Positions 7,704 to 58,905 of a DNA stretch of 64,000 nt are shown here, piece after piece. This DNA is from Lachnospiraceae bacterium. Lineage in GTDB: Bacteria; Bacillota; Clostridia; Lachnospirales; Lachnospiraceae. The notes below the pieces were generated by a model. That model saw only the letters and a list, made by a program, of their open reading frames with translations. It did not search any database and was not told the DNA's origin. The position numbers and the translations under genes were made by a program. Each line of letters opens with the position of its first letter. Positions within the stretch are counted from its first letter, which is position 1. The stretch spans positions 20,957 through 84,956 of the forward strand of contig JAFTWC010000029.1 of the NCBI GenBank assembly GCA_017465475.1, given 5' to 3'.

Positions 7704-7750
7704 CAATATGAAAGTTGCAATAAACATAGTTTCTGAACGGAGGATTTGAT

Positions 7751-8125: not shown

Positions 8126-8149
8126 GAAGAAATGATTTATGCGCTTTGG

Positions 8150-8171: not shown

Positions 8172-8229
8172 TCACTTCATTTTATGACTGTTTTTTATCA
8201 AAAAACGCGCAAGAAAGGATATGGGAGCA

Positions 8230-9099: not shown

Positions 9100-9115
9100 T
9101 AAGATGTGCTATACT
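9088..9115 (+). promoter_or_regulatory. mscL: Possible promoter of the mscL operon
   Basis: TTGAAA (9088-9093), 16 bp, TATACT (9110-9115). The -35 box lies at the end of the upstream lipoprotein coding region. Confidence 0.5.
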
Positions 9116-9136
9116 TGATGAGTAGGATAAAAAAGT

Positions 9137-9152
9137 ATCTCCTAAAGGAGAT
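9137..9152 (+). promoter_or_regulatory. Small hairpin in the mscL leader
   Basis: A 7-bp perfect inverted repeat, ATCTCCT-AA-AGGAGAT, holds an SD-like AGGAG 27-32 bases before the mscL ATG. It is not close enough to cover the true SD (GGAGG at 9167-9171). Role unknown. Confidence 0.35.
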
Positions 9153-9178
9153 TGGAAGGATTCAAAGGAGGAAATACT

Positions 9179-9640: not shown

Positions 9641-9659
9641 ATTTTGGAGGTAGTAAGTG

Positions 9660-10811: not shown

Positions 10812-10837
10812 CAGAGGTTAAAGAGAGGAATCTTAAA

Positions 10838-11779: not shown

Positions 11780-11794
11780 GATTGCGAGGAAAAA

Positions 11795-12646
11795 ATGAAA
11801 CAGACAGGCAGTAAACGGCATATCTTTTCAGTAACGACACGGAAGAAATGCTTAAGGACTGCATGTCTGTTTTTTTTAGTTGCAGTTTTCCTGAGTGTAT
11901 GTATGTTAAAAAGTGAGCGTATGGAGAGGACATTTATGAGAAAAACAATTATGATTACAGCCCACAGAGGAGCATCCTACGGAACTCCGGAAAACACAAG
12001 AGCATCCATAGATTTGGCGATTGCAGAACAGGCGGATTATGTAGAGATAGATGTGAGAATGACAGCAGACAAGGTTCCTGTATTGATGCATGACCGGGCA
12101 TTATTTCGTACCACAGGAGTTGTGAATGATATCGATAAAGTGACGTATGAGGAGGTTTCTTACTATGATGCGGGAGCTGGATATGCAAAAGAATTTGTAG
12201 GAGAACAGGTTCCTTCTTTGCAGGAAGTATTAGAAGAATACGGCGGTAAAATAAAGTTTAACATCGAATTGAAAGAAGAAGAGAACAGAGAACTGGCAGA
12301 ATCCGTAGTGGCATTGATAGAACGGTACGGATTAGAAGAGCGTTGCGTGGTAACTTCTGCATTCTATGAACAGTTGGAATATGTGAAAAAAGAAAATAAA
12401 TCCATTAGAACCGGCTACATTTTGTCTTTGGTATACGGGGAAATTTTTCATTGTGATGCGGCAGACTTTTTCAGTATTAAATGGAATTATATTACGGAGC
12501 AATTGGTAAAGGGGGCACATAAAAGAGGAAAAGAAGTCCATGCATGGACAGTAAATAAGAAACATGAAATAAAACAAATGCAGGAGCTTAATGTAGATAA
12601 TATAATAACGGATAAGCCGGCTTATGTAAGGGAAGTGATTCAATGA
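11795..12646 (+). CDS. Membrane-anchored glycerophosphodiester phosphodiesterase
   Basis: A 283-residue enzyme that hydrolyses glycerophosphodiesters to glycerol 3-phosphate and an alcohol. One N-terminal transmembrane helix (TACLFFLVAVFLSVCML, about residues 22-38) is followed by a GDPD TIM barrel. The catalytic pieces are AHRGASYGTPENT, the metal-binding pair in YVEIDVRMTAD, and the VLMHD histidine. The barrel appears to sit outside the membrane, tethered by the helix. The gene starts 15 bp after the CobW-fusion gene and probably belongs to that run. A shorter start at ATG 11926 or 11937 would give a cytosolic form. Confidence 0.88.
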   Translation: MKQTGSKRHIFSVTTRKKCLRTACLFFLVAVFLSVCMLKSERMERTFMRKTIMITAHRGASYGTPENTRASIDLAIAEQADYVEIDVRMTADKVPVLMHDRALFRTTGVVNDIDKVTYEEVSYYDAGAGYAKEFVGEQVPSLQEVLEEYGGKIKFNIELKEEENRELAESVVALIERYGLEERCVVTSAFYEQLEYVKKENKSIRTGYILSLVYGEIFHCDAADFFSIKWNYITEQLVKGAHKRGKEVHAWTVNKKHEIKQMQELNVDNIITDKPAYVREVIQ

Positions 12647-12712
12647 TGCAACATTTCAAAAAACTGCCGTATTATATTTGTAGAATGTAAACGATATGAT
12701 GCGGAGGTTTGT

Positions 12713-13504
12713 ATGGCAGTAAAGGTTGCACTGGATGCAGGACACGGCGGATATGATAGCGGAGCGGTACATGAAGGTCGCAGGGAAAAGGATGATAATC
12801 TTGCACTTACGCTTGCGGTAGGAGAAATTTTGGAACAAAACGGAGTGAATGTGGTGTATACAAGAACAGAAGATGTGTATGATTCTCCGGTACGAAAAGC
12901 GCAGATTGCAAATGAGTCGGGAGCAGACTATTTTATTTCTTTTCATCGCAATTCCAGTCCCAATGACAATCAGTATACCGGTGTAGAGACTCTTTTGTAT
13001 GATGAAAACGGAGTTAAAGCAGAGATGGCGCGTGCTATCAATGCAGAACTTGCGAAAGTAGGATTCCGGGATTTGGGATTAAATATAAGACGGGATTTGG
13101 CAGTACTTCGGCGTACCCAGATGCCGGCACTTCTTTTGGAAGTAGGATTTATAAATACCGATGCGGATAATGCACTTTTGGATGCTAGATTTGATGACAC
13201 GGCTCAGGCTATTGCCAACGGAGTATTACAGACCATTGGAGGAGAAATCGGTCCGGGAGCAGGAACCGGCTCCGGCAGGCCGGTATCAGAGGCCTACGCG
13301 GTACAGGTAGGCTTGTTCCGGAATCCGGAAAATGCCGATAATTTATATCGGGAGCTGGTAGCTCTCGGAATTCCGTCAGATATTTCAAGAAGCGGAAGTT
13401 TTTATGCGGTACGAGCGGGAAGAACGGAAAGTCTGAATGAAGCGGTGGCATTGCAACAGGAGTTACAGCAGTTGGGATATGATACGTTAGTGGTAACGTT
13501 ATAG
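12713..13504 (+). CDS. N-acetylmuramoyl-L-alanine amidase with SPOR domain, no signal peptide (CwlC-like)
   Basis: A 263-residue zinc amidase of the Amidase_3 family that cleaves the MurNAc-L-Ala bond in peptidoglycan. Zinc ligands are visible in LDAGHGGYDSG, the Glu of GRREKD, and FISFHRNSS; the catalytic Glu is in LLLEVGFI. Residues 190-263 form a SPOR-like domain (AYAVQVGLFRNPENADNLYREL). SPOR domains bind denuded glycan. The lack of a signal peptide and this order match CwlC-type amidases, which lyse the mother cell late in sporulation; the role here is inference. ATG 12713 follows CGGAGG. The stop overlaps the tail of the opposite-strand CmpB gene by 6 bp. Confidence 0.88.
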   Translation: MAVKVALDAGHGGYDSGAVHEGRREKDDNLALTLAVGEILEQNGVNVVYTRTEDVYDSPVRKAQIANESGADYFISFHRNSSPNDNQYTGVETLLYDENGVKAEMARAINAELAKVGFRDLGLNIRRDLAVLRRTQMPALLLEVGFINTDADNALLDARFDDTAQAIANGVLQTIGGEIGPGAGTGSGRPVSEAYAVQVGLFRNPENADNLYRELVALGIPSDISRSGSFYAVRAGRTESLNEAVALQQELQQLGYDTLVVTL

Positions 13505-13921
13505 TTTCTTTTTACAAAGAAGGCGCTCAAATAATAGTCCGGCCAAGGCCCAACAAGGTGCATAATCCAGTCGGATAACGCCTTTATAATTGAGTTTTGC
13601 CTTGCTGTAATCCCAAGGGCAGGCATTGTGACGTTTCAGAAGGACACCGGTAGTGAATTCGCAAAAAAAGATTCCGGTAGCGTAAATCAGACCGCGGACG
13701 ACAGCAGACTTTTCTTTGATTTTGTTATAAACAGCAGGGATAACGGCGGCAAGACCGTAGATGGGAAACATCCACACGGAAGTACGGCAAAAGAGCCGGT
13801 TATCTTTTGTGTGGTTCTTTACGGAATGGAGACCGGTCCAAAAACATTCCAGACACCAACCGGTGAAACCGCAACGGATAAAGTCGGAACAAAAGTGTCC
13901 CACGGAATGAAAAAAATGCAT
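13499..13921 (-). CDS. CmpB-type (putative ABC type IV) integral membrane protein
   Basis: A 140-residue membrane protein of the PF06541 (ABC_trans_CmpB) kind, with about three to four hydrophobic segments and the family pattern GFTGWCLECFW, VWMFPIYGLAAV, and a Trp/Tyr-rich end (CPWDYS, NYKGVIRLDYAPCWALAGLLFE). Function is unknown in the family; the name is historical. ATG 13921 has AGGAGG 5 bp upstream, but that SD sits in one arm of a long inverted repeat, so translation may be controlled. It is transcribed away from tyrA on the same strand. Confidence 0.75.
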   Translation of the reverse strand: MHFFHSVGHFCSDFIRCGFTGWCLECFWTGLHSVKNHTKDNRLFCRTSVWMFPIYGLAAVIPAVYNKIKEKSAVVRGLIYATGIFFCEFTTGVLLKRHNACPWDYSKAKLNYKGVIRLDYAPCWALAGLLFERLLCKKKL

Positions 13922-13922
13922 A

Positions 13923-13987
13923 AAAACCTCCTGTATTATTTTCCGTTTTAGTATGTACCGATAAGGAAAAAATATACAGGAGGTTTT
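13923..13987 (-). promoter_or_regulatory. 14-bp inverted repeat covering the CmpB gene SD
   Basis: AAAACCTCCTGTAT (13923-13936) is perfectly inverted at 13974-13987 with a 37-base loop. Further A/T-rich pairing (ATTTTCC with GGAAAAAAT) is possible inside. In minus-strand RNA the upstream arm contains CCTCC and would pair with the SD of the CmpB gene. The same hairpin ends in TTTTT and lies just after tyrA, so it could also act as the tyrA terminator. Confidence 0.6.
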
Positions 13988-14010
13988 GAATATAGTGCTA
14001 TGGGAACCGA

Positions 14011-15102
14011 TTACCGATATACGGTAAAACGGTTATCTGATAGTAGTGTATATGCACGTTCTAAAGAGTCTCTGTCATAAAACTCGATGCGAAGAGCTCC
14101 TTGTTCGTAGGCACGATTATGCACGATACCGATATTTTTTAAGCTGATGCCGTGGACTGCCAACAGGGTGGCGAAGGTGGCGATGGCACCGGCTTCATCA
14201 CGAAGGTCCGCATGAAGGACAAAGGATTCCGGAAGAACGCCTTTCCGTTCCTGGAGGGAGCTGCGGAATTCGCCGGCCTCGGAAAACAGTGCACGGATTT
14301 CTTCTTTGTTATCTGAAGATAATGCCTGTTCTGCCTCGGTAAGTAAAGAAATGTAGCGACGCAATGTAGGCAAAACATAGTCGGTATTTGCGGATAAAAT
14401 GCTCTCCCAAAGGGATGGGGAGGAAGAGGCAATCCGGGTAATGTCCTTAAAACCACCGGCTGCTAAAAGGCGCATGGTGTCGGCCTCTTCCGAGGTGCGC
14501 ACCAAATTTACAAGCTGTGCCGCAATTAAGTGGGGTACATGACTGATGGCGGACACGGCATCATCGTGTTCTGACGGAGAAAGAACCACAGGAATGGATT
14601 TTATTTGTTTTACCAAAGTAAGAAATGCCTCTACCCGTTCCTGCGGACAATCTTCGGTTAAAGTAACAGCATAGTATGCATTTTCCATAAGAAGAGCATT
14701 GCTGTTTGTAAAGCCGGTTCGTTCAGAACCGGTCATCGGGTGTCCACCGATAAATTGAGTAGAAAGACCTGCGGCTTTTGCAGCGGCATGAATTCCGGAT
14801 TTTACACTGCCTACGTCCGTAAGAATGGTTTTATTCGAAATGACTTCTTTTAATTTCGGCAAATAGGAAATATTGCAATCTACCGGCGCACAAAGAAAAA
14901 TGTAGTCGCAGTTGGAAAGCTCTTTTAACGAAAAAACAACATTATCCAATACCGCAGTGTTTAACGCATTCTTTAAGTCATCAGAGAGTTCCGGTCTTCT
15001 GGAGTATGCCGTAATTTTGCAGGAAGGGGTTGTTTCCCGCAGAGCTCTGGCGATGGAGCCGCCGATTAGGCCGAGACCGATAAAGCCAAATTGTGTATCC
15101 AT
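14011..15102 (-). CDS. tyrA: Prephenate dehydrogenase with ACT domain
   Basis: A 363-residue enzyme that oxidises prephenate to 4-hydroxyphenylpyruvate in tyrosine synthesis. The Rossmann motif [16 protein letters not shown] opens the protein. The conserved [13 protein letters not shown] and [15 protein letters not shown] segments carry the catalytic His residues. A C-terminal ACT domain (about residues 292-363, [20 protein letters not shown]) suggests allosteric feedback by tyrosine. It follows aroF by 12 bp on the same strand, forming an aroF-tyrA operon that commits carbon to the shikimate pathway and then to tyrosine. Confidence 0.95.
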
Positions 15103-15114
15103 GAAAAGACTCCT

Positions 15115-16131
15115 TTATAAAAGTGGTTTGCCCATCATAGCAGAGAGTGGGCGAAGGGTATCACAAAGTTCCTCAAATTGTGCGAAGGTAAGAGACTGCG
15201 GGCCGTCGGAAAGAGCTTTTTCCGGACACGGATGGGTCTCAATCATAAGACCGTCGGCACCTGCGGCGACAGAAGCAAAGGCTAATGGTTTTACATAATC
15301 TCTGACACCGGTGGCGTGACTTGGGTCAACGATAATCGGAAGATGGCTTTTTTGACGAATTACCGGCACTGCAGCCAAATCCAACGTATTTCTGGTGGCG
15401 GTTTCAAAGGTGCGGATACCGCGTTCGCAAAGAACTACATTTGGGTTGCCTTCCGCAAGAATATACTCTGCTGCATTTAACCACTCGTCAATGGTAGCAG
15501 ATAACCCCCGCTTTAACAGTACCGGAAGCCCGGTTTTTCCCACTTCTTTTAACAGGAAGAAGTTCTGCATGTTTCTTGCACCGATTTGTAACATATCTAC
15601 ATACTTTACTGCGGCTTCTACGGCAGCAAGACTGGTTACTTCACAAACAACCGGAAGACCGGTGGCATCTTTGGCTTCTTTCATTAAACGAAGACCGTCT
15701 TCTTCCATACCCTGGAAGGAGTACGGAGAAGTCCGGGGCTTGTAAGCACCGCCGCGTAAAATCTGAGCACCGGCTTTCTTTATTGCGATAGCAGTTTCCA
15801 GTACCTGATCAGCGGATTCCACCGCACACGGCCCTGACATAATAACAAGGTTATTTCCGCCGATGTTTGCATTACCGACTTTTACAACGGTTGGTTCCGG
15901 ATGAAACTTTTTATTGGCAAGTTTATAGCTTTCGGTGACGGCAACAATGCGATCAACGCCTTCTTTAATTTCAAGGTTCTTATCGGCAAGAACCGTTTTA
16001 TCGCCTACCACACCGATAATGGTGACTTCATGGCCGTGGGAGAGGTGGGTATCCAATCCCTGACTCTGAACGAAAGAAACAACATTGTTAATTGCTTCCA
16101 TGGAAGCATTGGGTTTCATTACTATAATCAT
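15115..16131 (-). CDS. aroF: 3-deoxy-7-phosphoheptulonate (DAHP) synthase
   Basis: A 338-residue class I-beta DAHP synthase that condenses phosphoenolpyruvate with erythrose 4-phosphate, the first step of aromatic synthesis. An N-terminal ferredoxin-like/ACT-like regulatory domain ([10 protein letters not shown] to about residue 70) is followed by the KDO8P/DAHP synthase barrel with [25 protein letters not shown], and IVDPSHATG. The start at 16131 is chosen because GGAG lies 8 bp upstream and family members start MIIVMK; the longer frame has no RBS. A consensus promoter lies 54 bp upstream. Confidence 0.95.
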
Positions 16132-16184
16132 GTTCGTATCTCCTCTGTAACAATTTATTTTCATGTGATTTTTGTTCTATCGTT

Positions 16185-16213
16185 ATTGTAAACCCGGTTT
16201 TTTTATTTGTCAA
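16185..16213 (-). promoter_or_regulatory. Promoter of aroF-tyrA
   Basis: On the minus strand, TTGACA (16208-16213), 17 bp, TACAAT (16185-16190). The leader is too short for a T-box and none is visible. Confidence 0.85.
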
Positions 16214-16315
16214 CGCTTTTTTGCTTTAAAGCGCAACGGTTTAAAGTGACAATATCGTAAAACCCGCAGAATATAAGGAAAAATTACGATTTTATTTTAA
16301 AAAATTTTTGTGTAA

Positions 16316-16344
16316 ACTATGCAGGAGATTATTGCAGACTATGC
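16316..16344 (+). promoter_or_regulatory. Direct repeat upstream of the LytTR gene promoter
   Basis: ACTATGC occurs at 16316-16322 and 16338-16344, a 22-bp period that puts both on the same DNA face. They end 8 bp before the -35 box. LytTR proteins bind pairs of roughly 9-bp direct repeats with a similar period, so this is a plausible autoregulatory site. Confidence 0.45.
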
Positions 16345-16352
16345 GAAACCTA

Positions 16353-16380
16353 TTGCGAAAAAAATTTTTTCGTGTATGAT
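16353..16380 (+). promoter_or_regulatory. Promoter of the LytTR gene
   Basis: TTGCGA (16353-16358), 16 bp, TATGAT (16375-16380). The spacer contains CGAAAAAAATTTTTTCG (16356-16372), a perfect inverted repeat with A/T tracts that should bend the DNA. Confidence 0.6.
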
Positions 16381-16422
16381 AAACTTAACGAGCTCGATGG
16401 AAGAGGGAAGGAGGAGCGGGAG

Positions 16423-16875
16423 TTGAACATACGACTGAATGTCAGTGACGAGCATTATGAAGAACTGGAACAAAAGCTAAAGGCAGCAGGCTTTGTCATT
16501 GACGATGAAGCAGAGTTTGTATTGACGGAGCAGGGGCGGTTTGCCGGGCATTTGTCTGTAAAAACAAAGGAAGGGAAAAAACTGAAACTTGCCATAGAAG
16601 AAATTGTTTTTATCGAAAGTCTGGGGCACGATGTACTGGTTCACGGAGCCGACGGGGAATGCTATTATGCTTACGACAGATTATATCAGTTGTGCGCAGT
16701 GTTAGACAATACAAAATTTTTGCGTGTCAGCAATTGTGCCATCATTGCAAAGGCCCATGTAAAAAAGATTAAACCGTCCATTTCCATGAAATTTGTTTTG
16801 GTGATGTCGGACGGAGCGCTGGTGGACGTAACCAGGAGTTATTATAATAGTTTTCGGTCATTTTTTCATATATAA
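16423..16875 (+). CDS. Stand-alone LytTR DNA-binding protein
   Basis: A protein of 150 residues. The first 45 or so form a small alpha/beta segment (LNIRLNVSDEHYEELEQKLK). The LytTR domain follows (about residues 55-150) with IEEIVFIESLGHDVLVHG and the recognition part FLRVSNCAIIAKAHVKKIKPS. No receiver domain is present, so it is not a classical response regulator. The start is TTG 16423: GGAGGAG lies 6 bp upstream, whereas the longer frame would begin inside the -10 box. The next gene, 17 bp downstream, encodes a membrane protein; LytTR-membrane protein pairs often regulate each other, which may apply here. Confidence 0.8.
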   Translation: MNIRLNVSDEHYEELEQKLKAAGFVIDDEAEFVLTEQGRFAGHLSVKTKEGKKLKLAIEEIVFIESLGHDVLVHGADGECYYAYDRLYQLCAVLDNTKFLRVSNCAIIAKAHVKKIKPSISMKFVLVMSDGALVDVTRSYYNSFRSFFHI

Positions 16876-16892
16876 GAATAGGAGGATGAGAG

Positions 16893-17900
16893 ATGAGTGC
16901 AAGTGTAGTTTATTTACCGATTCTTGTTTTATTCGTGTTGGCACTTTGTGTGCTGGGATATTTTATTTGTTACAGGATTATGATAAACCGTAAGCTTAAG
17001 CAACAGGAAAGCGAGGCTCATGTGCCGATGGCATCCACGGAGTCGGTGTTTAAGATAGTGGTGATTATCGGAGTGCTGGTAATTTACAGTTCTTTGAATT
17101 CGAAACTGGTGGACCTTCGGAGTGAATTACGGGATACAAAAAGTGCGCTGTCCGATAAAATTTATGCGTTACAGTATGAGTTGTATGAAATGAAGGAAGC
17201 AGCCAAAAAGGAGGCTTCTTTGATTAGCGGAGCATATTATGAGTTCGGAGAACTTGATGCGAAAGAGCATACGGCAGAGCTGCAGTTTTTTGTGACACCG
17301 AAAAGCTATAGTGAAGGAACGGAAGTATCGGTGGTGTTCCGGGGCGAAACGATTCCGTTAACGCATGAAAGAGGCGGGCGGTTTACGGGAAGTACCATTG
17401 TTTCGATTTTTGAAGATGTCTACGAGAAATGTGTGATCACTGTTACCGAAGACGGTGTGACGAAAACGGAAGTATGGGAGAACGCTCCGCAGGGAAGACT
17501 GTGTTTTAATTGTCTACCGGTATTAGCTGTGGGAGGTGGTGGCGGAAGCCAAATGTCTAAGAACTCGTTACGGGTAGAATATGAGTATGAGCTGTTTCCG
17601 GAGTATGCAGATTCTTTTCGGAATCTAACACTTTATGTGAAAAAAGGCGGCACGACAGTGGAGGAATTTCAGTTTGTGGATGGTCATATATCCATTAACC
17701 AAAGTTATTCGGTAAAGAAGGGAGAAAAGGGAGAGACCATTGAGTTTTATCTAAGAGGTGTGGATGAATACGGCTTTATCCATGAGAAGCTTGAGGGGAC
17801 ATGGAATGTCGGGGAGACCATAGGAAATGAGGCACATAGCACCATGGATAATTATGATTACCAGATTTATGCCCCGGACGGAACCTTATTGACAAAGTAG
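16893..17900 (+). CDS. Two-TM membrane protein with coiled coil and extracellular beta-rich region, unknown function
   Basis: A 335-residue protein I do not recognise. TM1 spans about residues 6-27 and TM2 about 50-67, followed by a coiled coil (LRSELRDTKSALSDKIYALQ, about 73-105). The rest (110-335) is beta-strand-rich with a Gly run (GGGGGS near residue 217). The C-terminal region is probably outside the cell, given two TM segments and a short cytoplasmic-type basic loop between them. It is paired with the LytTR gene and ends at a strong terminator, so the two form an operon. It could be a sensor or a membrane partner that sequesters the regulator. Confidence 0.65.
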   Translation: MSASVVYLPILVLFVLALCVLGYFICYRIMINRKLKQQESEAHVPMASTESVFKIVVIIGVLVIYSSLNSKLVDLRSELRDTKSALSDKIYALQYELYEMKEAAKKEASLISGAYYEFGELDAKEHTAELQFFVTPKSYSEGTEVSVVFRGETIPLTHERGGRFTGSTIVSIFEDVYEKCVITVTEDGVTKTEVWENAPQGRLCFNCLPVLAVGGGGGSQMSKNSLRVEYEYELFPEYADSFRNLTLYVKKGGTTVEEFQFVDGHISINQSYSVKKGEKGETIEFYLRGVDEYGFIHEKLEGTWNVGETIGNEAHSTMDNYDYQIYAPDGTLLTK

Positions 17901-17913
17901 GAGAAGGATTGTG

Positions 17914-17947
17914 AGAAAGGCTGCACGGAATGCAGTCTTTCTTTTTT
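17914..17947 (+). terminator. Intrinsic terminator after LytTR-membrane protein operon
   Basis: AGAAAGGCTGCA pairs with TGCAGTCTTTCT around CGGAA, followed by a run of six T. Confidence 0.9.
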
Positions 17948-18044
17948 CTGAACAATAATTTATATAGAAAAAAAGAAAAAGATGTGATATGATATAAAAT
18001 GATGCAGACTGTTTTGCAAGAAGAAAGGGATAGGTACAGATGTT

Positions 18045-19016
18045 ATGGCGATAAAATGGGGCGTATTAGGTACCGCAGGAATTGCGGCAGGTTGTACAAT
18101 TCCGGGCATGCAGATGGCAGCGGGATGTGAGCTGTATGCCATTGCAGGCAGAAGTGAAACGAAAGTGAATGAGTTTAAGGAACGATTCGGGTTTCAAAAG
18201 GCCTATGTAGGATATGATGCATTGCTTGCAGATAACGAGGTGCAGGCAGTTTATATACCGCTTCCGAATCATTTGCATTTTGAATGGGTTATGAAGGCCA
18301 TTGAGGCAGGAAAGCACGTGTTGTGCGAAAAGCCGTTGGCATTAAATACATTGGAAGCGGAGGAAATGTTCCGGGCTGCAAAGCGCAAAGGAGTGCAGTT
18401 TGCGGAAGCCTATGCGTATCTTCACAGCCCTTATGTGGCGTCTTTGCGTGAAGTCATCGAAAGCGGCAGTATCGGTGAAGTGGATTATATCGAAACTGCA
18501 TTTGTAACCCAGGGATATGAAGAGGATTACCGTCTGCATAAGGAGTTTGGCGGCGGTGCCATGTATGATTTGGGATGTTATTGTACTACCATGATGTTAT
18601 CGTTGGTGGATGCAGAGCCTTCTTTTGTTAGAGCTTGCGCGGAGTTTGGCGGGGATGATGTGGATTTTCATACCGCGGGCATTGTAAGGTTTGAAAACGG
18701 AGTGAGGGCCTCCTTTAATGTAGGGATGATTTTCGGCAGAGGAGCGAACGGCAGATTTGATCGTTTGTATATTCACGGTTCCAAAGGTTGTATCCGCTCC
18801 GAAGTGGAATATAATCAGGCAGGAGAATTAAGTTATCGTGTAGTAACAAACGGTACGGAAACGACAAAGACTGTTACCGCACGGCAGAATTATTGTTTGG
18901 AAGTAGAACAGATGAACCGGGCCATCGAAGGTACGGGAAGGTTACTTGTAACACCGGAGTTTTCCGTCCGGAACGCAAAACTGATGGATGCGGTATTGCG
19001 GGAAATTGGATATTAG
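18045..19016 (+). CDS. Gfo/Idh/MocA-family oxidoreductase
   Basis: A 323-residue NAD(P)-dependent sugar or cyclitol dehydrogenase-like protein. The N-terminal Rossmann fold has WGVLGTAGIAAG, and the family hallmark HVLCEKPLALN (catalytic-type Lys in EKP) lies near residue 95. The C-terminal alpha/beta domain contains KEFGGGAMYDLGCYC. The substrate is not predictable from these motifs. ATG 18045 is preceded by AAAGGG at a longish distance. It is probably transcribed with or just ahead of the YgiQ-type gene (31 bp gap). Confidence 0.9.
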   Translation: MAIKWGVLGTAGIAAGCTIPGMQMAAGCELYAIAGRSETKVNEFKERFGFQKAYVGYDALLADNEVQAVYIPLPNHLHFEWVMKAIEAGKHVLCEKPLALNTLEAEEMFRAAKRKGVQFAEAYAYLHSPYVASLREVIESGSIGEVDYIETAFVTQGYEEDYRLHKEFGGGAMYDLGCYCTTMMLSLVDAEPSFVRACAEFGGDDVDFHTAGIVRFENGVRASFNVGMIFGRGANGRFDRLYIHGSKGCIRSEVEYNQAGELSYRVVTNGTETTKTVTARQNYCLEVEQMNRAIEGTGRLLVTPEFSVRNAKLMDAVLREIGY

Positions 19017-19047
19017 GGAACTGTAGGTTAGAAAGGCAGGATGTGGC

Positions 19048-20973
19048 ATGAAGGATTTTTTGCCGATTTGCAGAGAAGACATGGAAAAGCGTGGCTGGGA
19101 TCAGTGCGACTTTGTATATATTATCGGAGATGCCTATGTGGACCATACTTCCTTCGGTCCGGCAATTATCAGCCGAGTGTTGGAGAGTCACGGCTATAAG
19201 GTGGGCATCATATCCCAACCGGATTGGAAGGATGAGACAAGCGTACAGCGTTTGGGCGAACCGAGACTTGGTTTTTTAGTATCTGCGGGAAATATGGATA
19301 CTATGGTAAACCATTATACCGTAGCGAAAAAACGTCGAAGTCAGGATGCGTATACTCCGGGAGGCGTCATTGGAAAGCGTCCGGACAGGGCTACCATTGT
19401 TTATTGTAATTTGCTTCGTCGTGTGTATAAAAAGAAGCCGATTATTATCGGTGGGATAGAGGCATCCCTGCGTCGTTTGGGACATTATGACTATTGGTCG
19501 GATACGGTGAAGCGTTCTGTTTTATTGGATTCCGGTGCGGATTTGTTATCTTACGGCATGGGAGAAAAGTCCATCGTGGAAATTGCGGATGCGCTTGCCT
19601 CCGGCCTGGCGGTAAAGGACATTACGTTTGTTCCCGGAACCGTATACCGGGCATCGACGTTGGATTCGGTGTATGATGCGGTTCTGCTTCCGGCTTTTTC
19701 CGAGATAAAGGAAGATAAAAAGACCTTTGCAAAAAGCTTTTACGTGCAGTATTGCAATACAGACCCGTTTTCGGGAAAACGGTTGGTGGAAAAGTACAGT
19801 GATACGGAATATGTGGTACAGAATCCGCCGGCAGCCCCTCTTACCCAGGCGGAACTGGACCGGGTGTATTCTCTTCCGTATATGAGAAACTATCATCCGT
19901 CTTATGAAGAAGCAGGCGGGATTCCTGCAATTGATGAGTTGAAATTCAGTCTGGTAAGTAACAGAGGATGTTTCGGGGGATGCAGCTTCTGTGCGTTAAC
20001 CTTCCATCAGGGACGTATTATTCAGACCCGAAGTCATGAGTCCATATTGGAAGAGGCTAAGCTTATGACCTGGGATCCGGATTTTAAAGGATATATCAAT
20101 GATGTGGGCGGTCCGACGGCGAATTTTCGCGCACCGGCTTGCGAAAAGCAACTTACAAAGGGAGTGTGTCCGAATAAGCAGTGTTTGTTCCCGACACCAT
20201 GTAAGAATTTAAAGGTAAATCACGAGGATTATCTGGCTCTGTTAAGAAAATTGAGAGAATTACCGAAAGTAAAAAAGGTATTTATTCGTTCCGGAATCCG
20301 GTTCGACTATTTGATCTATGATAAAGACCGTACATTCTTAAGAGAACTATGTGAACATCATGTCAGCGGACAACTGAAAGTTGCACCGGAGCATGTATGC
20401 GATGCAGTGCTTTCTAAGATGGGCAAGCCGAGCCGTCATGTATATGACACCTTTATTGCTGAGTATAAAAAGATGAATGCACGGTTAGGAAAAGAGCAGT
20501 ATGTGGTTCCGTATCTTATGTCTTCCCATCCGGGATCTACTATGAAGGAAGCGGTGGAACTGGCAGAGTACTTAAGAGATTTGGGCTATATGCCGGAACA
20601 GGTACAGGACTTTTATCCGACACCGTCCACCATTTCCACCTGTATGTATTATACGGGATTGGATCCGCGGACTATGGAGCCGGTGTATGTGCCGAAGTCG
20701 CCTCATGAAAAAGCCATGCAACGTGCGCTCATTCAGTATCGTAATCCAAAGAACTATGAGTTGGTGGAAGAGGCATTAAAACTTGCTCACAGAGAGGATT
20801 TAATCGGATTTGATAAAAAGTGTCTGATTCGTCCGAGAGGACAGAAGCCGTCAGGCGGTTATTCCGGCGGAACATTTTCAGGGAAAAAGAGAAGCGGAAA
20901 AACAGAACAGAAGTCATTGGTTCAGAATAAGAAGAAAACCATACGAAACGTACATAAGAAAAAGAGTAAATAA
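19048..20973 (+). CDS. YgiQ-type radical SAM protein
   Basis: A 641-residue member of the YgiQ/UPF0313 family. The N-terminal B12-binding-like region (about 1-200) precedes the radical SAM cluster motif CFGGCSFC (near residue 310) and the family-specific Cys-rich segment [21 protein letters not shown]. The C-terminal tail (after about 590) is Lys/Arg/Ser-rich and probably disordered. The reaction catalysed by the family is unknown. ATG 19048 lies 7 bp after a weak GCAGGATG. It sits upstream of yqeG and aromatic genes without an obvious functional link. Confidence 0.92.
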
Positions 20974-28014: not shown

Positions 28015-29223
28015 ATGGAACGGCGGCGTTTTTTGAGCTATTTTCTTGCGGCGGCGGGATTGATTGTATTGTATTGTTTATTGCAAAAATTATCAGTGGT
28101 TGGTGTGGCCGTGAAATGGGTATTGGGTATTTTTTCTCCTATATTTACCGGGTTTATTGTTGCATTCGTTTTAAATCTTCCCATGCGTGGTTTGGAGAAG
28201 CTTTGGGATAAATGTGAACTGGGAATAAAAGCGCTTTTTTATAAAAAACGAAAGAAAAAAGCCGGCGATACGGTTCAAATCAGTCGGTTCAGCGCAATAA
28301 TGCGCCGACCGTTGTGTTTGTTATTGTCTATTTTGATTATTGTTGTAATTCTTGTTGCTGTGGTGAATTTGGTACTTCCGGAACTGGGAAATGCAGTGAG
28401 ACTTTTGGTGGAAGGTGTACCGGAATGGTTGAAGAAGGCCATGGAGTGGTGCATGCAGTATGCAGAGGAATATCCGTTTATTTATGAGACCATTATGGAA
28501 ATCAATATTGATTGGGAGACTACTGCAAAGGGGTTACTGAATTTGATAGGGTCCGGAACCATTGATGTGGTAGGAAATACGATTACCAGTATAATCGGTG
28601 CTCTTGGTGGTGTGGTAGACTTTGTAATTGCATTAATTTTTGCAATTTATGTCTTGTTAAACAAAGAAACCTTGTCCGGTCAGATTAAGAGATTATTTCA
28701 GGCATTTTTACCGAATAAGGCCAGAGATACCATATTGCATGTGGCAACCACTGCCCACGGGGTATTTTGTGCATTTATAACCGGTCAGTGTATCGAAGCG
28801 GTGATTTTAGGAAGTCTTTGTGCGGTGGGTATGTTGATTTTCCGGTTCCCGTACGCGGCTATGATTGGTGTGTTGGTGGGTGTGACAGCCTTGATTCCGG
28901 TGGTGGGAGCCTTTATCGGAGCCGGAGTGGGAGCTTTTCTGATTTTAATGAACGACCCGTTCCAGGCATTGATGTTTATTATATTTATAGTGATTTTGCA
29001 ACAGATTGAAGGAAATGTCATTTATCCGAAAGTAGTAGGAAATTCGGTAGGCCTTCCTGCTATGTGGGTGCTGGCGGCAGTAACGGTTGGTGGCGGTATC
29101 GGCGGTATTGTAGGTATGTTGTTTGCAGTTCCTACAGCGTCGGTAGTATACACATTACTTCGTGAAGCAACGGAAAAACGTATAGAGAAAAAGAAAGAAA
29201 TGAACAATGGGGGAAGTTTTTGA
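28015..29223 (+). CDS. AI-2E family transporter (YdiK/PerM type)
   Basis: A 402-residue membrane protein of the AI-2E/UPF0118 family with about eight TM segments. Diagnostic regions are FIYETIMEINIDWE (extracellular helix region), ITGQCIEAVILGSLC, PYAAMIGVLVGVTALIPVVGAFIG, and the conserved QQIEGNVIYPKVVGNSVGLP. Some members export AI-2; others act as Na+/H+ antiporters, so the substrate is open. GAAGGAGG precedes the ATG. The stop overlaps the lepB ATG (TGATG), which suggests coupling. Confidence 0.92.
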   Translation: MERRRFLSYFLAAAGLIVLYCLLQKLSVVGVAVKWVLGIFSPIFTGFIVAFVLNLPMRGLEKLWDKCELGIKALFYKKRKKKAGDTVQISRFSAIMRRPLCLLLSILIIVVILVAVVNLVLPELGNAVRLLVEGVPEWLKKAMEWCMQYAEEYPFIYETIMEINIDWETTAKGLLNLIGSGTIDVVGNTITSIIGALGGVVDFVIALIFAIYVLLNKETLSGQIKRLFQAFLPNKARDTILHVATTAHGVFCAFITGQCIEAVILGSLCAVGMLIFRFPYAAMIGVLVGVTALIPVVGAFIGAGVGAFLILMNDPFQALMFIIFIVILQQIEGNVIYPKVVGNSVGLPAMWVLAAVTVGGGIGGIVGMLFAVPTASVVYTLLREATEKRIEKKKEMNNGGSF

Positions 29224-29785
29224 TGAAACATGAAAATGTACAGACTAACAGAAAAAGTGTAATAAAGGAAATTCTCAGTTGGATTGTAGTGTTTGTAGTA
29301 GCTGTAGGACTTGGTACCGTGATTAACAATTTTGTGTTGATGAAAGCCGTAATACCGTCCGGTTCGATGGAACATACATTGAATGTGGGAGATAAAGTAT
29401 TCGGATATCGTATGGCCTATTTGTTTTCGGAACCGGAACGTGGAGATGTGGTGATGTTTGACTATCCGGACGATGAAGAAATTTTATATGTGAAGCGGGT
29501 AATCGGATTGCCGGGAGAAACAGTAGAAATTGTTGACGGAAAGGTATACATCTGGCAGGACGAGACCGGAGAAGAAAAGTTGTTACTGGAGGAGACTTAT
29601 TTAAAGGAAGAAGCTGTGGGGTCTTACGGACCGTTTCATGTACCGGAAGACAGCTATTTTATGCTGGAGATAACCGAAATAATTCCTGGGATTCCAGAAA
29701 ATGGGAAAACAAGTTTGTAAGTAAAGAAAAAATCAGGTGTAAAGCGTGGTTTCGCTATAAACCTGATTTCGGAATCATTAAATAA
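29223..29785 (+). pseudogene. lepB: Signal peptidase I gene with a single-base frameshift
   Basis: As read, the frame stops at 29720 after 165 residues. It has one N-terminal TM helix, the catalytic Ser box (PSGSMEHTLNVGDKV) and the Lys box (EILYVKRVIGLPGE). The conserved box E is missing in this frame, where MLEITEI replaces it. Moving one base after CTGG (29664-29667) restores GDNRNNSWDSRKWENKF and a typical C-terminus to TAA 29785, about 187 residues in all. The simplest reading is loss of one G from GGG. It may be a real mutation or a sequencing error. ATG 29223 overlaps the upstream stop. Confidence 0.85.
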
Positions 29786-40844: not shown

Positions 40845-42755
40845 TTATATTTCCCCGGACTCGTCGGGAGTCCAGAGAAAAAGTTGGTTTTCTGTGATAC
40901 CGTGACGACAGAGGGTATCACGTACTACCGAAAGCAGTTCTTCGCAACGTTCCTTACGGTAGTGACACACATTGTTGGTCAGTTCATAAGGATAATGAGA
41001 AACGGAACAGCTTGGCTTAGCCTTTTTTAGCTGTTTTAAGTAATCCTTTGATATGCGGAAGACGCCCAGGCTGACGTCGGTAAGATCTTCCGGTGAAAGT
41101 ACGGAAAATACATTATCTACAAGAGTAGAATATAATTCCGACGCATTCGGTACATCTAATATCGGGTCAAAACAAAGTCTTAAAGAAAAGCCACGCTTTA
41201 CAGCTTCTTTTGCGGTACGCAATCTTGCCCGCAAGGATGGTGTGTAATGTTCGTATCGACAAATCAACTCATCCGGAGACAGGGTAAATGCCATGATGAT
41301 ATTTTTCGCTGCCGGAAGTTCTCTTACAAAGGGAAGGGCAGCACTTTTTGTACGCAATTCCAATCGTAACTCGGGATGAGTCGCGGCATACTCGCAAAAG
41401 GCTTTTGCATGAGGAAGCAAACCATTTAAAGCAGCCAAATCCGAATCATAGGAACAGCAAAGGTAAACAGGATGATTCGCAAGAAGTGTATCCAGTTCCT
41501 TAAAGTAATCTTCCAAATTCACAAAAACTACCATGTTTCTGCCGGGATACATGCCCTGTAAGTAGCAGTAGTCACAGTCATACAGACAATTCATGACGCA
41601 GGAGGTGTACATAAAGTGTTCTTCTCCGAAACTTTGACAAACCGGGGCGCCCGGATAAAAATAAGTTCCGTTATTTTTTGCAAGGATAAGAGAAGGTTCT
41701 TTTTCCTGCATGGATAAATCCTGTTTTCCACGGTTAAAGACATCCTTATAGTGTTCCACCGGAATGACGGAAGAATTTGGCAGGCGGGAAAGAATCTGTC
41801 GGGTAACCGGGTGTGTCAAAACATCCCGCTCCACGTAAATGTGCCGAAACGGTCGACGGGGGTCTGAAGATAAATCGAATGGCTTCCCGGAATCGGAAGT
41901 GCTTTTATTCGTAAGGACAAAGGATTCCAGTGCGTCCAAAAGCTGCAAGGCTTCCTTTTTCTTGTGAGGAGTATCTGTTGGCTTTGGCAAAGCAGAAAAT
42001 AGTTCCTGTTCTGATAAGCCTGCATGGAATGCATAGGTGAGAAGTCCCTTCAGCTTGCGCTCCATGGTGGTGGAAAAGGTATAGTCAGCGGCTATATTCT
42101 TTGCCATGGAATCGATTTTATGTTGCGGGGCATTGTTTTCGGTTAGGAAAAGGGAAAGCTCTTCTTCTTTCATTTTCAAATAAGTAAGTAACGGAGCAAG
42201 TTGACGTTGTATCAGTTTCGTGACTGCTTCCGGAGAAGGAACTGTTCCGTCACAAATATCGGAAACAATTTTATAGAAGAAACAATGGGACGGCATAACC
42301 TTGCGAAATAATGGGACGGCAACACCATAGGCTTCCATATCGTAAAGGACAGGGAGATTTCCCTCCTGTTTTATAAAAGGGGAGGTAACCGGAGTGTCGG
42401 ACGTAAACAAGCGGGCTTCCGGGAAAGGGTGATGGTACAACTCCGGGTAAACGGATTTTCCTGTGGTAAGCTCTGTAACAGAGGCGCAAAGATAAGCATC
42501 TCCCACAGAAGAATCGGAATCTCCGCCGCAAATACCGATATTACAAAAAATGTCCTGTGGAGAAACGGAATGAATGGTTAAATACTCCGTCATTGCCATA
42601 GCAGCATTTAATTTGCCGGAACCGGTAAGCAGAAGGCGCAGAGCATCCTGCTCAGATTCGTACAGTGTAAAGCTGTTGTATGCCACCTTTTTCATGGAAA
42701 ACCCCGAAAGAATTGCATTTGCCTCCGGAAAAATTGCAGTAATCAGTATAATCAT
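40845..42755 (-). CDS. Nucleosidase-like domain fused to a spore photoproduct lyase-like radical SAM domain
   Basis: A 636-residue protein with two recognisable halves. Residues 1-190 resemble the nucleoside phosphorylase/nucleosidase fold (ILITAIFPEANAI, LLTGSGKLNAAMA, NIGICGG, YDMEAYGVA). After a linker (about 195-310) comes a spore photoproduct lyase-like radical SAM domain: YTSCVMNCLYDCDYCYLQGMYPGRNMVVF carries the SPL Cx3Cx2C pattern near residue 410, with further SPL-like strands (LELRTKSAAL, AFTLSPDELI). SPL repairs spore thymine dimers. The fusion may link base salvage or damage sensing to repair, but this is unproven. Confidence 0.8.
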   Translation of the reverse strand: MIILITAIFPEANAILSGFSMKKVAYNSFTLYESEQDALRLLLTGSGKLNAAMAMTEYLTIHSVSPQDIFCNIGICGGDSDSSVGDAYLCASVTELTTGKSVYPELYHHPFPEARLFTSDTPVTSPFIKQEGNLPVLYDMEAYGVAVPLFRKVMPSHCFFYKIVSDICDGTVPSPEAVTKLIQRQLAPLLTYLKMKEEELSLFLTENNAPQHKIDSMAKNIAADYTFSTTMERKLKGLLTYAFHAGLSEQELFSALPKPTDTPHKKKEALQLLDALESFVLTNKSTSDSGKPFDLSSDPRRPFRHIYVERDVLTHPVTRQILSRLPNSSVIPVEHYKDVFNRGKQDLSMQEKEPSLILAKNNGTYFYPGAPVCQSFGEEHFMYTSCVMNCLYDCDYCYLQGMYPGRNMVVFVNLEDYFKELDTLLANHPVYLCCSYDSDLAALNGLLPHAKAFCEYAATHPELRLELRTKSAALPFVRELPAAKNIIMAFTLSPDELICRYEHYTPSLRARLRTAKEAVKRGFSLRLCFDPILDVPNASELYSTLVDNVFSVLSPEDLTDVSLGVFRISKDYLKQLKKAKPSCSVSHYPYELTNNVCHYRKERCEELLSVVRDTLCRHGITENQLFLWTPDESGEI

Positions 42756-42791
42756 GGAAAACTCCTTTATATCAAAGTAATGTATGGCTTT

Positions 42792-42820
42792 ATTATAGCG
42801 AAGGGGAGAAAACATTACAA
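42792..42820 (-). promoter_or_regulatory. Promoter of the SPL-fusion operon
   Basis: On the minus strand TTGTAA (42815-42820), 17 bp, TATAAT (42792-42797). Confidence 0.75.
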
Positions 42821-45095: not shown

Positions 45096-47240
45096 ATGAC
45101 AGAAAAAGAGTTAAAAAAACGGAAAGAGCAAATTCTAAAATTTATGAAGGAGCCGGAGTATGTTCCCATGCGAAAGAGGGACATTGCGGCATTATTTCGT
45201 GTGCCGGTTGAAGCAAGAGAGGAATTATCTTATATCTTAGAACTTCTGTTGCAGGACGGCAGTATTACTATGGATACGAAGGGACGCTACCATGCGGAAG
45301 ATGTTTTGATTCTTTCCGGAGAATATCGGGGAACTTCCAGGGAATTCGGCTTTTTGTCTCCGGAGGACGGAAGTCCGGATGTTTATATCGAAGCCGGTTC
45401 CACATTGGGAGCATTAAACGGAGATGTGGTACAAGCGGTTATTTTTGAGGATACATCCCAAAAAGCGGGCAAAAGCCGTTTGGGCCGTGTTGTAAAAATC
45501 GTGAAGCGTGCCAATGAAATCGTAGTGGGAACTTTTTTTCGAAAAAAAGAGTACGGTTTTGTGGTTTCGGAGGATAAGCGCCTGGGAAGTGATATTTTTA
45601 TAGACGGAAAATATTCCATGGGAGCGGTAAGCGGTCATAAAGTGGCGGTGAAAATTACGGATTTCGGAAACGGTAAGCAGAATCCTATGGGGAAAGTGAT
45701 AGAGATACTGGGACACATCAATGACCCCGGAAGTGATGTGGTGACGGTGTTGCGTGCCTTCGGAATCCCGGAAACCTTTCCGGTGGACGTGATGGAAGAA
45801 ACAGAATCGGTGCCGGAACAGATTACGGAAAAGGAGTGTGTCGGTCGTCTGGATTTACGAGACGAAGTGATGATTACCATAGACGGAGAAGATGCGAAGG
45901 ATTTGGATGATGCCGTTTCCTTAAAAAAGACGGAGAATGGGTATCTTCTCGGGGTGCACATTGCGGATGTGACGGAATATGTAAGAGAAGGCAGTGCCTT
46001 GGATACGGAAGCAAAGAAACGCGGGACAAGCGTGTATTTGATTAATAAGGTAGTACCGATGTTACCTCATCGTCTTTCTAACGGAATTTGCTCGTTAAAT
46101 GCAGGAGAAGACAGACTGGCGCTTAGTTGTATCATGGAACTGAATGAGGAGGGCACTATTGTGGGACATCGTCTGGCAGAAAGCGTCATTCATGTCAACA
46201 GGCGGACATCCTATACAGAAGTGGCGGCACTTCTTTCGGCAGACGAGGAGAACAAAGAAGCACTGGAAGCCGAATACGGGGAAATCTATTCCATGTTACT
46301 TATGATGGCAAAAGTTTCCGGGTTACTTCGTCAAAAAAGAAAAGACAGAGGCGCCATTGATTTTGATTTTCCGGAAAGTAAGATTATTCTGGATGAGACC
46401 GATAAGCCGGTAGAAATTAAACCATATGAAAGAAATGATGCCACACGGATGATTGAGGACTTTATGTTGGCGGCGAATGAAACTGTTGCGGAGGATTTCT
46501 TCTGGCAGGAGATTCCGTTTGTATACCGTGTGCATGAAAGTCCGGATGAAGAGAAAATCAAGCGTCTCGGGATTCTGATTCAAAATTTCGGATATAACTT
46601 ACGAGGGTCAAAAACCGCGCCGCATCCGAAGGTGCTGCAAAGTCTTTTGGAAAAGGCGGACGGAAGTCCGGAGGAAGCACTGATAGCAAGGCTTACGCTT
46701 CGTTCCATGAAGCAGGCAAAGTATATGACGGAGTGTGAAGGGCATTTCGGATTGGCAACAAAGTATTACTGTCATTTTACTTCTCCGATTCGCAGATATC
46801 CCGATTTGCAGATTCATCGTATTATAAAGGAGAATTTGAGAGGAGAATTGTCGGAGAGAAGAAGGGCACATTACAGTGTCATACTTCCGGAAGTGGCACA
46901 GAATTCCTCTAAGACGGAGCGTAGAGCCGAAGAAGCAGAACGCGAACTTTTAAAGATGAAGAAGTGTGAATATGCCGAAGAGCACATTGGTGAGGTGGCC
47001 GAAGGAATTATTTCCGGTATTACAAATTACGGAATGTATGTGGAACTTCCGAATACAGTGGAGGGAATGATACGGCTATCCGATATGGTGGACGATTATT
47101 ATTGGTTCGATGAAGAAAACTATCGTTTGGTAGGAGAACGGACGTATCAGGTGTTTCAGTTGGGGCAAAAGATAGAAATAAGGATAAATCATGTAGATAA
47201 ATTATTAAAGACTATTGATTTTTTGCTTGTTTCGCGGTAA
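45096..47240 (+). CDS. rnr: Ribonuclease R
   Basis: A 714-residue 3'-5' exoribonuclease of the RNB family that degrades structured RNA and takes part with SmpB in clearing stalled messages. An N-terminal winged-helix region (about 1-70) and two cold-shock-like OB folds precede the RNB catalytic domain with [17 protein letters not shown] (Mg-binding Asp residues), then a C-terminal S1 domain ([20 protein letters not shown]). There is no Lys-rich tail. ATG 45096 is chosen; the upstream extension of the frame is the GC-rich element. secG-rnr-smpB is the usual order in Firmicutes. Confidence 0.96.
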
Positions 47241-47271: not shown

Positions 47272-47745
47272 ATGGCAGAAAAAAAGCAGGCAGTAAAGTT
47301 GATTGCCAACAACAAGAAAGCATATTTTGATTATTTTATAGAGGATAAGTATGAAGCCGGAATTGAGTTATTCGGCACAGAAGTGAAGTCACTTCGTATG
47401 GGAAAGTGCAGTATTAAAGAGTCATTTATCCGGATAGAACGAGGAGAAGTGTATGTGTACGGTATGCATATCAGCCCTTATGAAAAAGGAAATATTTTTA
47501 ATAAAGATCCGTTAAGAGTAAGAAAGCTGTTGTTGCATAAAAGGGAAATTCTAAAGCTTTCCGGGGAACTGGCACAGAAGGGATATACACTGGTACCGCT
47601 TTAGGTTTATTTTAAAGTAAGACTTGTAAAGGTTGAAATCGGTTTAGCAAAGGGTAAAAATCTTTATGATAAGCGAGAAACCATGGCCAAGAAGGATCAA
47701 AGACGAGAAGTAGAGAAAGAGTTTAAAGTAAGGAATCTGTATTAA
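47272..47745 (+). pseudogene. smpB: smpB, interrupted by an in-frame TAG codon
   Basis: The gene encodes SsrA-binding protein, which carries tmRNA to stalled ribosomes. The frame stops at TAG 47602-47604 after 110 residues (end GYTLVPL). The same frame then continues with [20 protein letters not shown] and [20 protein letters not shown] to TAA 47745. That is the normal SmpB C-terminus (157 residues in all). The stop stands where homologues have Lys (VPLKVYFK), so AAG to TAG is the likely change. The C-terminal tail needed for tmRNA accommodation would be lost. ATG follows AAAGGGG. Confidence 0.9.
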
Positions 47746-56608: not shown

Positions 56609-57322
56609 ATGTTACACATTGAAGGTTTTACAAAGCGTTACGGAGATAAGGTAGCGGTAAATGACCTGAATCTGCATATTGCTCCGGGGGAAATTTACGG
56701 TTTCATCGGTCATAACGGTGCCGGAAAGACTACTACTTTAAAGGCCTGTTGCGGTCTTTTAAAGCCGACGGCCGGAACAATTACGATAAACGGTAAGTCG
56801 ATTTCCGCAGATCCGTTGGGATGTAAAAAGGAGATGGCTTATATTCCGGATAATCCGGATTTGTATGATTTCCTGACAGGATACGATTACTTGAATTTTG
56901 TGGCAGATGTATACGGCGTTTCCAAGGAAGACAGAGACGAGCGTACGGATCGTTACGGAGAACTGCTTGGGATTACGGATGCTCTTTCCCTTCCGATTTC
57001 CGAGTACTCCCACGGTATGAAGCAGAAGGTGGCGATTATTTCCGCTTTGATTCATGCACCGAAGTTGATTTTAATGGATGAGCCGTTTGTAGGTCTTGAT
57101 CCGTCTGCGTCCCACCAGTTAAAGCAACTGATGGCAAAGCATTGTGAAGAGGGTGGTGCAATTTTCTTTTCTACTCACGTTCTGGAGGTGGCAGAGAAGC
57201 TTTGTCATAAAGTGGCAATTATTAAGGGTGGTAACTTGGTGGCTTCCGGCACTATGGAGGAAGTAAAGGGTGATTCTTCCTTGGAAAATGTATTCCTGGA
57301 ATTGGAGGATAAGGCAGAATGA
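56609..57322 (+). CDS. ABC transporter ATP-binding protein
   Basis: A 237-residue ATPase. Walker A GHNGAGKTT lies near residue 34, signature YSHGMKQK (SHG instead of SGG), and Walker B LILMDEPFVGLDP. The type is that of YhaQ/EcsA-like exporters. It is coupled to the permease by a 4-bp ATGA overlap. Substrate unknown. Confidence 0.92.
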   Translation: MLHIEGFTKRYGDKVAVNDLNLHIAPGEIYGFIGHNGAGKTTTLKACCGLLKPTAGTITINGKSISADPLGCKKEMAYIPDNPDLYDFLTGYDYLNFVADVYGVSKEDRDERTDRYGELLGITDALSLPISEYSHGMKQKVAIISALIHAPKLILMDEPFVGLDPSASHQLKQLMAKHCEEGGAIFFSTHVLEVAEKLCHKVAIIKGGNLVASGTMEEVKGDSSLENVFLELEDKAE

Positions 57323-58905
57323 GGTTATTGATTAAAATTCGTTTGAAATCCATGTTCGGCGGAATAAAAAAATCAATGAAATCTAAAAAGGCCGGAGCGG
57401 GAGCATTGCTTATCCTTGCGGTTCTGATTTGTATTGCGTCGGTGGAAGTGGTATTGTTCGGAGCCTGTAATTTGTTGGCACCGTTTCTTGAAACAAGCTT
57501 TGCATGGCTGTATTTTTCCTTAATCGGAATTCTTGCTTTTGCCATCGGTATTCTGGGTACGGTGTTTACGACCCAGAGCCAGATGTATGAAGCAAAGGAT
57601 AACGAAATGCTTCTTGCCATGCCGATAAAACCGTTTCATATTATTTTCAGTCGTGTGTTGGCTTTGTACATACTGACCTTAGGATTTACGGCATGCATTA
57701 TGCTTCCGGCAGGATTGGTTTACGGATTAAAAGTCGGTTTTTCCGTAAAGTTTGTGGTGATTTATTTAGTATCCATATTTCTTCTTTCCATGATTATACA
57801 AACCATCACCTGCTTGCTTGGCTGGTTGTTGCATTTTGTTTTGGCAGGTTTCAAGCACAAGGCATTGGTGGCAACCTTCTTTATGACCATTGTGATGGTA
57901 GCGTATATGTTTGGAATTAATCAGTTGGAAGGTTTGCTGATGATGCTGATACAAAACGGCGGTAAGATTGCGGAAGCGATTCAAAGTTTTGTATGGCCGT
58001 TTTATGCGCTGGGGCAGGCATGTATGGGAGATATGGTACAGTTCCTTTTATTTACACTTTTTTCCGTCGGAGTGTTTGCGGGAGTAATGTTCTTGTTATC
58101 AAAGACCTTTACGAAGGCTATGTTAGCGGGCGGCAAGACCAAAAGTGCGGGAAAACAAAAGAGAGATCGCAAAATCCGTACGCCGGAAGCTACTATCTGC
58201 AGAAAGGAATCCAAGCGGTTCTTCACCAGTACAACCTATCTGGTAAATGTAGGTATGGGTATTTTTATGATGGTGGCTCTGGTGATAGCCGGCATAGTGT
58301 TCAAATCCAAAATAACGGCGGTAGCTGCTTTGTTGGGAGATGTAAAGAGATATTATTCGTTTGTAATCGTAGCAGTTATGGGATTTATGGCAGCCATGAC
58401 TACCATTTCCGCACCGGCGGTTTCCTTGGAAGGAAAGCATATCTGGATTTTGCGTTCCATGCCGATTTCCGGTGCTGCGGTACTTAAGGCAAAACTTCGT
58501 TTTCATTGTATGGTGGCAGCATCGTTAGCGTTTATAGGTGGGTTGATTCTCGGTATTGTGTACGAATGTTCCTTGGCAGAAATTTTGATTGCTGCGATTG
58601 GATCGGCCTTGTTGCATGTACTTTGCGGAGTACTGGGACTTGTTCTCAATATGTGCTTCCCGCGTCTTGACTGGCCGACGGAAGCAGCACCGTGTAAGCA
58701 GTCTATGGCAGTGTTTTTAGCCATTATTATCATGATGTTCCTTTGCATCGGTGTGTTTGCACTCAGTATTTTCGGCATAAATCTGGTGGGAAAAGAGTTC
58801 TCGGTATTTGTTCTTTTGGGTGTGACGCTGATTATTGCGTTGGTAACCTATTTGCTGTATTTATTGATGGTAAAGTGGGGCGGAAAGAAGTTTGAGACGC
58901 TGTAA
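57319..58905 (+). CDS. ABC-2-like exporter permease, ten or more TM segments
   Basis: A 528-residue membrane protein with about 12 hydrophobic helices and a mid-protein hydrophilic stretch (KTKSAGKQKRDRKIRTPEATIC, about 272-296). The pattern resembles the putative permeases that accompany EcsA-like ATPases in Firmicutes. Its start overlaps the ATPase gene stop. It ends at a strong terminator, so the pair is a two-gene operon. Antibiotic or peptide export is a guess, not shown. Confidence 0.85.
   Translation: MRLLIKIRLKSMFGGIKKSMKSKKAGAGALLILAVLICIASVEVVLFGACNLLAPFLETSFAWLYFSLIGILAFAIGILGTVFTTQSQMYEAKDNEMLLAMPIKPFHIIFSRVLALYILTLGFTACIMLPAGLVYGLKVGFSVKFVVIYLVSIFLLSMIIQTITCLLGWLLHFVLAGFKHKALVATFFMTIVMVAYMFGINQLEGLLMMLIQNGGKIAEAIQSFVWPFYALGQACMGDMVQFLLFTLFSVGVFAGVMFLLSKTFTKAMLAGGKTKSAGKQKRDRKIRTPEATICRKESKRFFTSTTYLVNVGMGIFMMVALVIAGIVFKSKITAVAALLGDVKRYYSFVIVAVMGFMAAMTTISAPAVSLEGKHIWILRSMPISGAAVLKAKLRFHCMVAASLAFIGGLILGIVYECSLAEILIAAIGSALLHVLCGVLGLVLNMCFPRLDWPTEAAPCKQSMAVFLAIIIMMFLCIGVFALSIFGINLVGKEFSVFVLLGVTLIIALVTYLLYLLMVKWGGKKFETL

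Follow-up and report, generated by a model that had tools for sequence, protein, structure and literature searches.

A private in-frame TAG codon in smpB of a Lachnospiraceae draft genome, possibly an error of the consensus sequence

We analysed a window of 64,000 nucleotides, comprising bases 20957-84956 of contig C41 in a Lachnospiraceae draft genome (3.07 Mb, 81 contigs, 88.8% complete) that is probably metagenome-assembled. The gene of interest, smpB (47272-47745, forward strand), spans 157 codons from an ATG at 47272-47274 to a TAA at 47743-47745, is interrupted by an in-frame TAG, and lies among intact neighbours, namely secG, rnr and an HD-domain gene. The main features around it are as follows.

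45096-47240, forward strand: rnr (ribonuclease R), intact, upstream of smpB; TIGR02063, 816.4 bits; gene order kept in sibling genomes
47272-47601, forward strand: smpB codons 1-110, the part translated ahead of the TAG; NF003843 152.1 bits and TIGR00086 137.3 bits, both above cut-off
47602-47604, forward strand: the in-frame TAG, smpB codon 111, seen in the sequence and its translation and also recovered by the whole-genome family search
47605-47745, forward strand: smpB codons 112-157 and the ordinary TAA, cut off by the TAG; NF003843 46.2 bits
47778-48860, forward strand: HD-domain protein gene, intact, downstream of smpB; PF13487, 100 bits; aligned with siblings G007 and G004

The sequence-only reading had placed a TAG inside smpB, followed by 47 further codons of SmpB-like C-terminal sequence. 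The stop is confirmed, in frame with the ATG, while the continuation amounts to 46 sense codons before the TAA. The SmpB character of that continuation is borne out: the score against the NCBIfam SmpB model NF003843 rises from 152.1 bits for the 110-codon part to 210.1 bits when the whole frame is read through, and the 46-residue tail alone matches the model with an E-value of 3.7e-12, so the SmpB tail after the TAG is not a chance match (the tail piece falls below the cut-off of 130, as is expected because this applies to the whole protein). In the genome-wide search, the gene matched PF01668 with 208 bits against a cut-off of 27, and no other smpB match was found in the 81 contigs of the 88.8% complete assembly, making it single-copy there. 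Restart of translation past the TAG was considered and rejected, as the sole in-frame ATG, GTG or TTG is an ATG at codon 138 that leaves 20 residues.

Checking related genomes at this site had been proposed together with the original observation, and no relative was found to carry the stop. smpB was present in 58 of the 61 genomes searched, and in the 57 others the SmpB frame runs uninterrupted through body and C-terminal tail, whereas in the window genome alone it is broken, at codon 111. We also aligned 110 loci, consisting of the best 80 of 569 related stretches from named species genomes and 30 loci from the 61-genome search; these represent 106 distinct aligned sequences, with at least one genome occurring in both sets. 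None of the 110 loci, which include those best 80 of 569, contains an in-frame stop within the aligned stretch. Codon 111 is itself a variable position, occupied in this set (again including the best 80 of 569) by Gln (53), Lys (20), Ser (17), Arg (12), Asn (3), Ala (2), Thr (2) and Glu (1). The proposal that homologues hold Lys at the TAG site thus applies to a minority of 20 of the 110 loci but not to the seven genus siblings used for codon analysis (G001-G005, G007 and G009), which hold Ser (6) or Ala (1). Of the remaining siblings, G006 had no smpB match and G008, with a match, was left out of the codon analysis. The nearest smpB DNA among the genomes compared is 80.6% identical, and none of these genomes is from the window species. 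Within the reach of our tools, the lesion is therefore private to this one genome.

A genuine stop at this codon would be expected to inactivate SmpB. Truncation or mutation of the tail of E. coli SmpB has been reported to abolish in vivo activity while tmRNA binding is kept (PMC4151336). Moreover, five shorter solved SmpB chains (1k8h, 1zc8, 2czj, 1wjx, 6q9a) align as far as window residues 127-134; by our reading, the ends of these chains may mark the folded body of SmpB, so the stop would also remove about 20 residues of that body besides the tail. The expectation that tmRNA-based rescue would be crippled is accordingly supported as far as the damage is concerned, with a loss exceeding the tail, but the stop is seen in one draft genome only and may be absent from the organism.

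Taken together, the TAG is best explained as a lone lesion of one codon, private to this genome and without a programmed role, in a conserved single-copy smpB that is ordinary in other respects. The most likely single origin would be a consensus error in the draft genome, the living cell then making normal SmpB, a reading to which we assign a probability of about 0.5. Its main competitor is a true strain-level null, than which an error appears slightly more likely. One argument for an error is that selection on the body should be relaxed along with that on the tail in a true null, a pattern that the replacements in smpB do not follow. Window-specific replacements at genus-invariant smpB codons occur only at codons 116, 117 and 130, all within 60 bases past the TAG, amounting to 3 of 36 such codons in the tail against 0 of 91 in the body (Fisher p=0.021), but the tail cluster reaches only p=0.051 when judged by the window-wide replacement rate (232/10115), which counts against an error. 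Residue 130 is Lys in all 106 relatives of the set that includes the best 80 of 569 stretches, and another residue in the window. Rare residues are likewise more frequent in the tail (4/46) than in the body (1/110; p=0.027). We considered on this basis a decayed tail and rejected it, since despite the excess of rare residues an equal tail count occurs in 12 of the 106 intact relatives (this set, too, including the best 80 of 569 stretches); the same count weakens the argument for an error drawn from the tail. Ratios of dN/dS were mostly undefined, with synonymous sites saturated.

The same comparison of genus-invariant codons drew attention to two further open reading frames, which we record as separate observations. 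The first, at 57319-58905 on the forward strand, is an intact 528-residue frame matching neither Pfam nor NCBIfam and has window-specific replacements at 20 of its 243 genus-invariant codons, a share clearly higher than the 2.3% averaged over the window. The second, at 13499-13921 on the reverse strand, matches PF06541 (putative ABC transporter type IV) and has such replacements at 11 of 96 codons.

A consensus error is also supported by a second broken gene on the same contig and by the incomplete, draft nature of the genome. The signal peptidase I gene at 29217-29782 of the window (forward strand; family TIGR02227 as assigned from a sibling copy) contains a frameshift near 29657-29666, just ahead of its GDNR stretch; the gene is intact in siblings G003, G004, G005 and G007, and a search of some 480 kb of overlapping stretches from the window genome revealed no further copy. 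In the scan for broken genes on C41, which covered the window and bases 1-20000, comparison with G003 flagged 3 of 46 genes, namely smpB, the signal peptidase gene and an open reading frame that lacks a Pfam match and was therefore discarded, and comparisons with G004 (2 of 41) and G005 (2 of 40) flagged the same two genes again. In an equivalent scan, sibling open reading frames were set against a 200 kb portion of contig C50 (G003 contributing 108 genes and G004 73, in overlapping sets). This gave four flagged cases at three places, all dropped on inspection: three of the four belong to two open reading frames without a Pfam match that are probably not genes, and the other is a LysM-domain gene whose change of frame lies ahead of the probable start codon. 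No convincing break thus remained among the roughly 108 genes of this C50 stretch, which argues against pervasive consensus error, as the consensus is not poor everywhere; the contrast with C41 (2 of 46 against 0 of 108) gives only p=0.088. The same script gave 5 raw flags for the sibling genomes in 509 overlapping comparisons, and another sibling comparison yielded 12 flags, most of them near the starts of open reading frames, so that the rate of breaks in siblings may be above zero. We also looked for a mutator or oxidative-damage signature. Changes from G:C to T:A make up 27 of the 161 window-specific single-base replacements (16.8%), the highest share among eight genomes, but this is barely above that in G005 (14/85), with G009 at 37/253 and the lowest share in G003 (5/90), and we did not find such a signature convincing.

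Two further observations are incidental. On contig C50 of the window genome, an element of about 100 bases (L241:6975-7173) has many scattered matches in all five siblings searched and resembles a dispersed genus-wide repeat. In sibling G001, the copy of positions 40845-42815 of the window (L232-L233) has in-frame stops at residues 343 and 345 within a 66%-identical alignment, hinting at a broken gene in that genome.

That the strain truly carries a recent nonsense mutation is a tenable though tentative alternative to a consensus error. Translation would then end at residue 110, trans-translation would be lost, and quality control of the RqcH type would cope, possibly helped by further factors. 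The genome has an intact RF1 and uses TAG as an ordinary stop, most of the C50 stretch is without broken genes, and the unusual residues past the TAG would also fit relaxed selection. By contrast, all 91 genus-invariant codons of the body are unchanged, so any loss would have to be very recent, and smpB was found in 97% of 15,259 genomes in a published survey (PMC11633108).

Under a true mutation, the load would fall on other means of ribosome rescue, for which the sequence-only reading had suggested looking, and here the genome offers a candidate. The smpB contig encodes an intact NFACT protein of 588 aa with both the N-terminal (PF05833, 501 bits) and the RNA-binding domain (PF05670, 57 bits), which, judged by its domains, is probably of the RqcH type; it scores below the cut-offs of both matching NCBIfam models (archaeal RqcH and EfbA). 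The search for ArfB came out differently: PF00472 matches in the genome comprise RF1, a second release factor (a 370-aa open frame) and PrfH, and none of these three proteins fits ArfB by length or score. PrfH (TIGR03072, 186.4 bits; cut-off 166.65) is encoded directly beside an RtcB-like RNA ligase gene (G000:C56, L195:1471-3201, reverse strand), whose product scores below its family cut-offs; we presume that this pair may act on damaged ribosomes. Among surveyed Firmicutes, more than 90% have RqcH, and B. subtilis is reported to require trans-translation only if it lacks both BrfA and RqcH (PMC11633108). The same source describes severe fitness defects in B. subtilis double mutants lacking smpB together with brfA or with rqcH, which weighs against a true mutation (PMC11633108). 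Given the intact RqcH-type protein, a true smpB null would probably be viable here, at a cost.

Loss of the whole trans-translation system from the lineage, ssrA included, would be a more far-reaching version of a true null, and we regard it as quite improbable. A search for ssrA had also been proposed; no tmRNA above cut-off was found in the 88.8% complete assembly, compared with 7 of 9 genus siblings in which one was found, with tags AEDNLAYAA (5) and AEDNLAIAA (2). However, a gap in the assembly is the best explanation for the missing gene, because contig C39 breaks off within pyrE, about 4 kb short of the ssrA position in sibling G007. In G007, pyrE (TIGR00336) starts about 4.2 kb ahead of ssrA; C39 (26686 bases) stops 41 bases into pyrE, and the stretch preceding pyrE on this contig is common to three siblings. 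Neither the stretch from pyrE through ssrA (40 of 58 candidates scored) nor its final 1.8 kb, which finishes with ssrA (33 of 33 scored), has any other match in the window genome. The partner RNA of SmpB is thus missing from an assembly in which its locus, lying beyond the end of C39, is unassembled. In addition, G005 and G008, both incomplete, are likewise without a tmRNA above cut-off, and an assembly gap suffices as an explanation.

Readthrough or suppression of the TAG, giving full-length SmpB in regulated amounts, seems very improbable, although the 46 codons past the stop form an open frame that can still be recognised as SmpB. General recoding of TAG had been judged unlikely on the ground that other genes end in TAG, and both points hold: TAG terminates 8 of the 43 window open reading frames having at least 40 sibling-invariant codons, one of the eight (9142-9666, reverse strand) being doubtful, as it lacks a Pfam match and is interrupted by stops in siblings. 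RF1 is 356 aa long. A search for suppressor tRNAs, which had been suggested as well, found no CUA anticodon among the 30 tRNAs called by ARAGORN at 30 listed places, in a set that is incomplete since several amino acids are not represented and the assembly is a draft. A CUA tRNA-like pattern gave 20 matches against 83 in a reversed control, and ARAGORN calls no tRNA at those 20 loci; the best PylS match (24.9 bits) is far below the cut-off of 178. Therefore, with RF1 intact, TAG ending other conserved genes, and neither a CUA tRNA nor a PylS above cut-off detected in this incomplete assembly, recoding is unsupported, and the lack of any relative with a stop at codon 111 speaks further against regulated readthrough. 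Retention of a body-only SmpB of 110 residues for a non-tagging function is the least probable reading: the body is conserved, the tail has three unusual replacements, and E. coli tail mutants retain binding to both ribosomes and tmRNA (PMC4151336), but the truncation falls about 20 residues before the end of what even the shorter solved chains retain, which would leave an incomplete fold, and it is seen in one genome only.

We thus lean only slightly towards a consensus error over a true mutation, and on this slightly more likely reading the case is a caution against inferring biology from a single codon of a draft genome. If the stop is real, the strain would represent a naturally occurring smpB null with a full-size genome and a natural case for RqcH standing in for trans-translation. 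The fuller picture, of a Lachnospiraceae lineage with a full-sized genome living without trans-translation, its SmpB ending at residue 110, on RqcH-type quality control and with PrfH and the RtcB-like protein present, is in our view unlikely.

Literature searches aimed at SmpB in general, rather than at this organism, listed nothing that names the present case, though similar ones are on record. The gene resembles other members of the SmpB family (PF01668, TIGR00086, NF003843) in its sequence, its single copy, its site beside rnr and secG and its C-terminus, which is conserved when read through, and differs from them in the TAG at codon 111 and the unusual residues at 116, 117 and 130. Hudson et al. 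(2014; PMC4131195) compiled 16 strains whose smpB is pseudogenized, frameshifted or truncated, two of them Clostridium difficile, and cautioned that all but one of the frameshifts could stem from errors of sequencing. The window smpB would be one more broken-smpB case of this kind, with a lesion in the consensus of the only copy found and the same caveat of error. It differs in that the lesion is a single nonsense codon in a full-size draft genome, whereas the stop-codon case listed there, Hodgkinia, is a highly reduced endosymbiont (PMC4131195).
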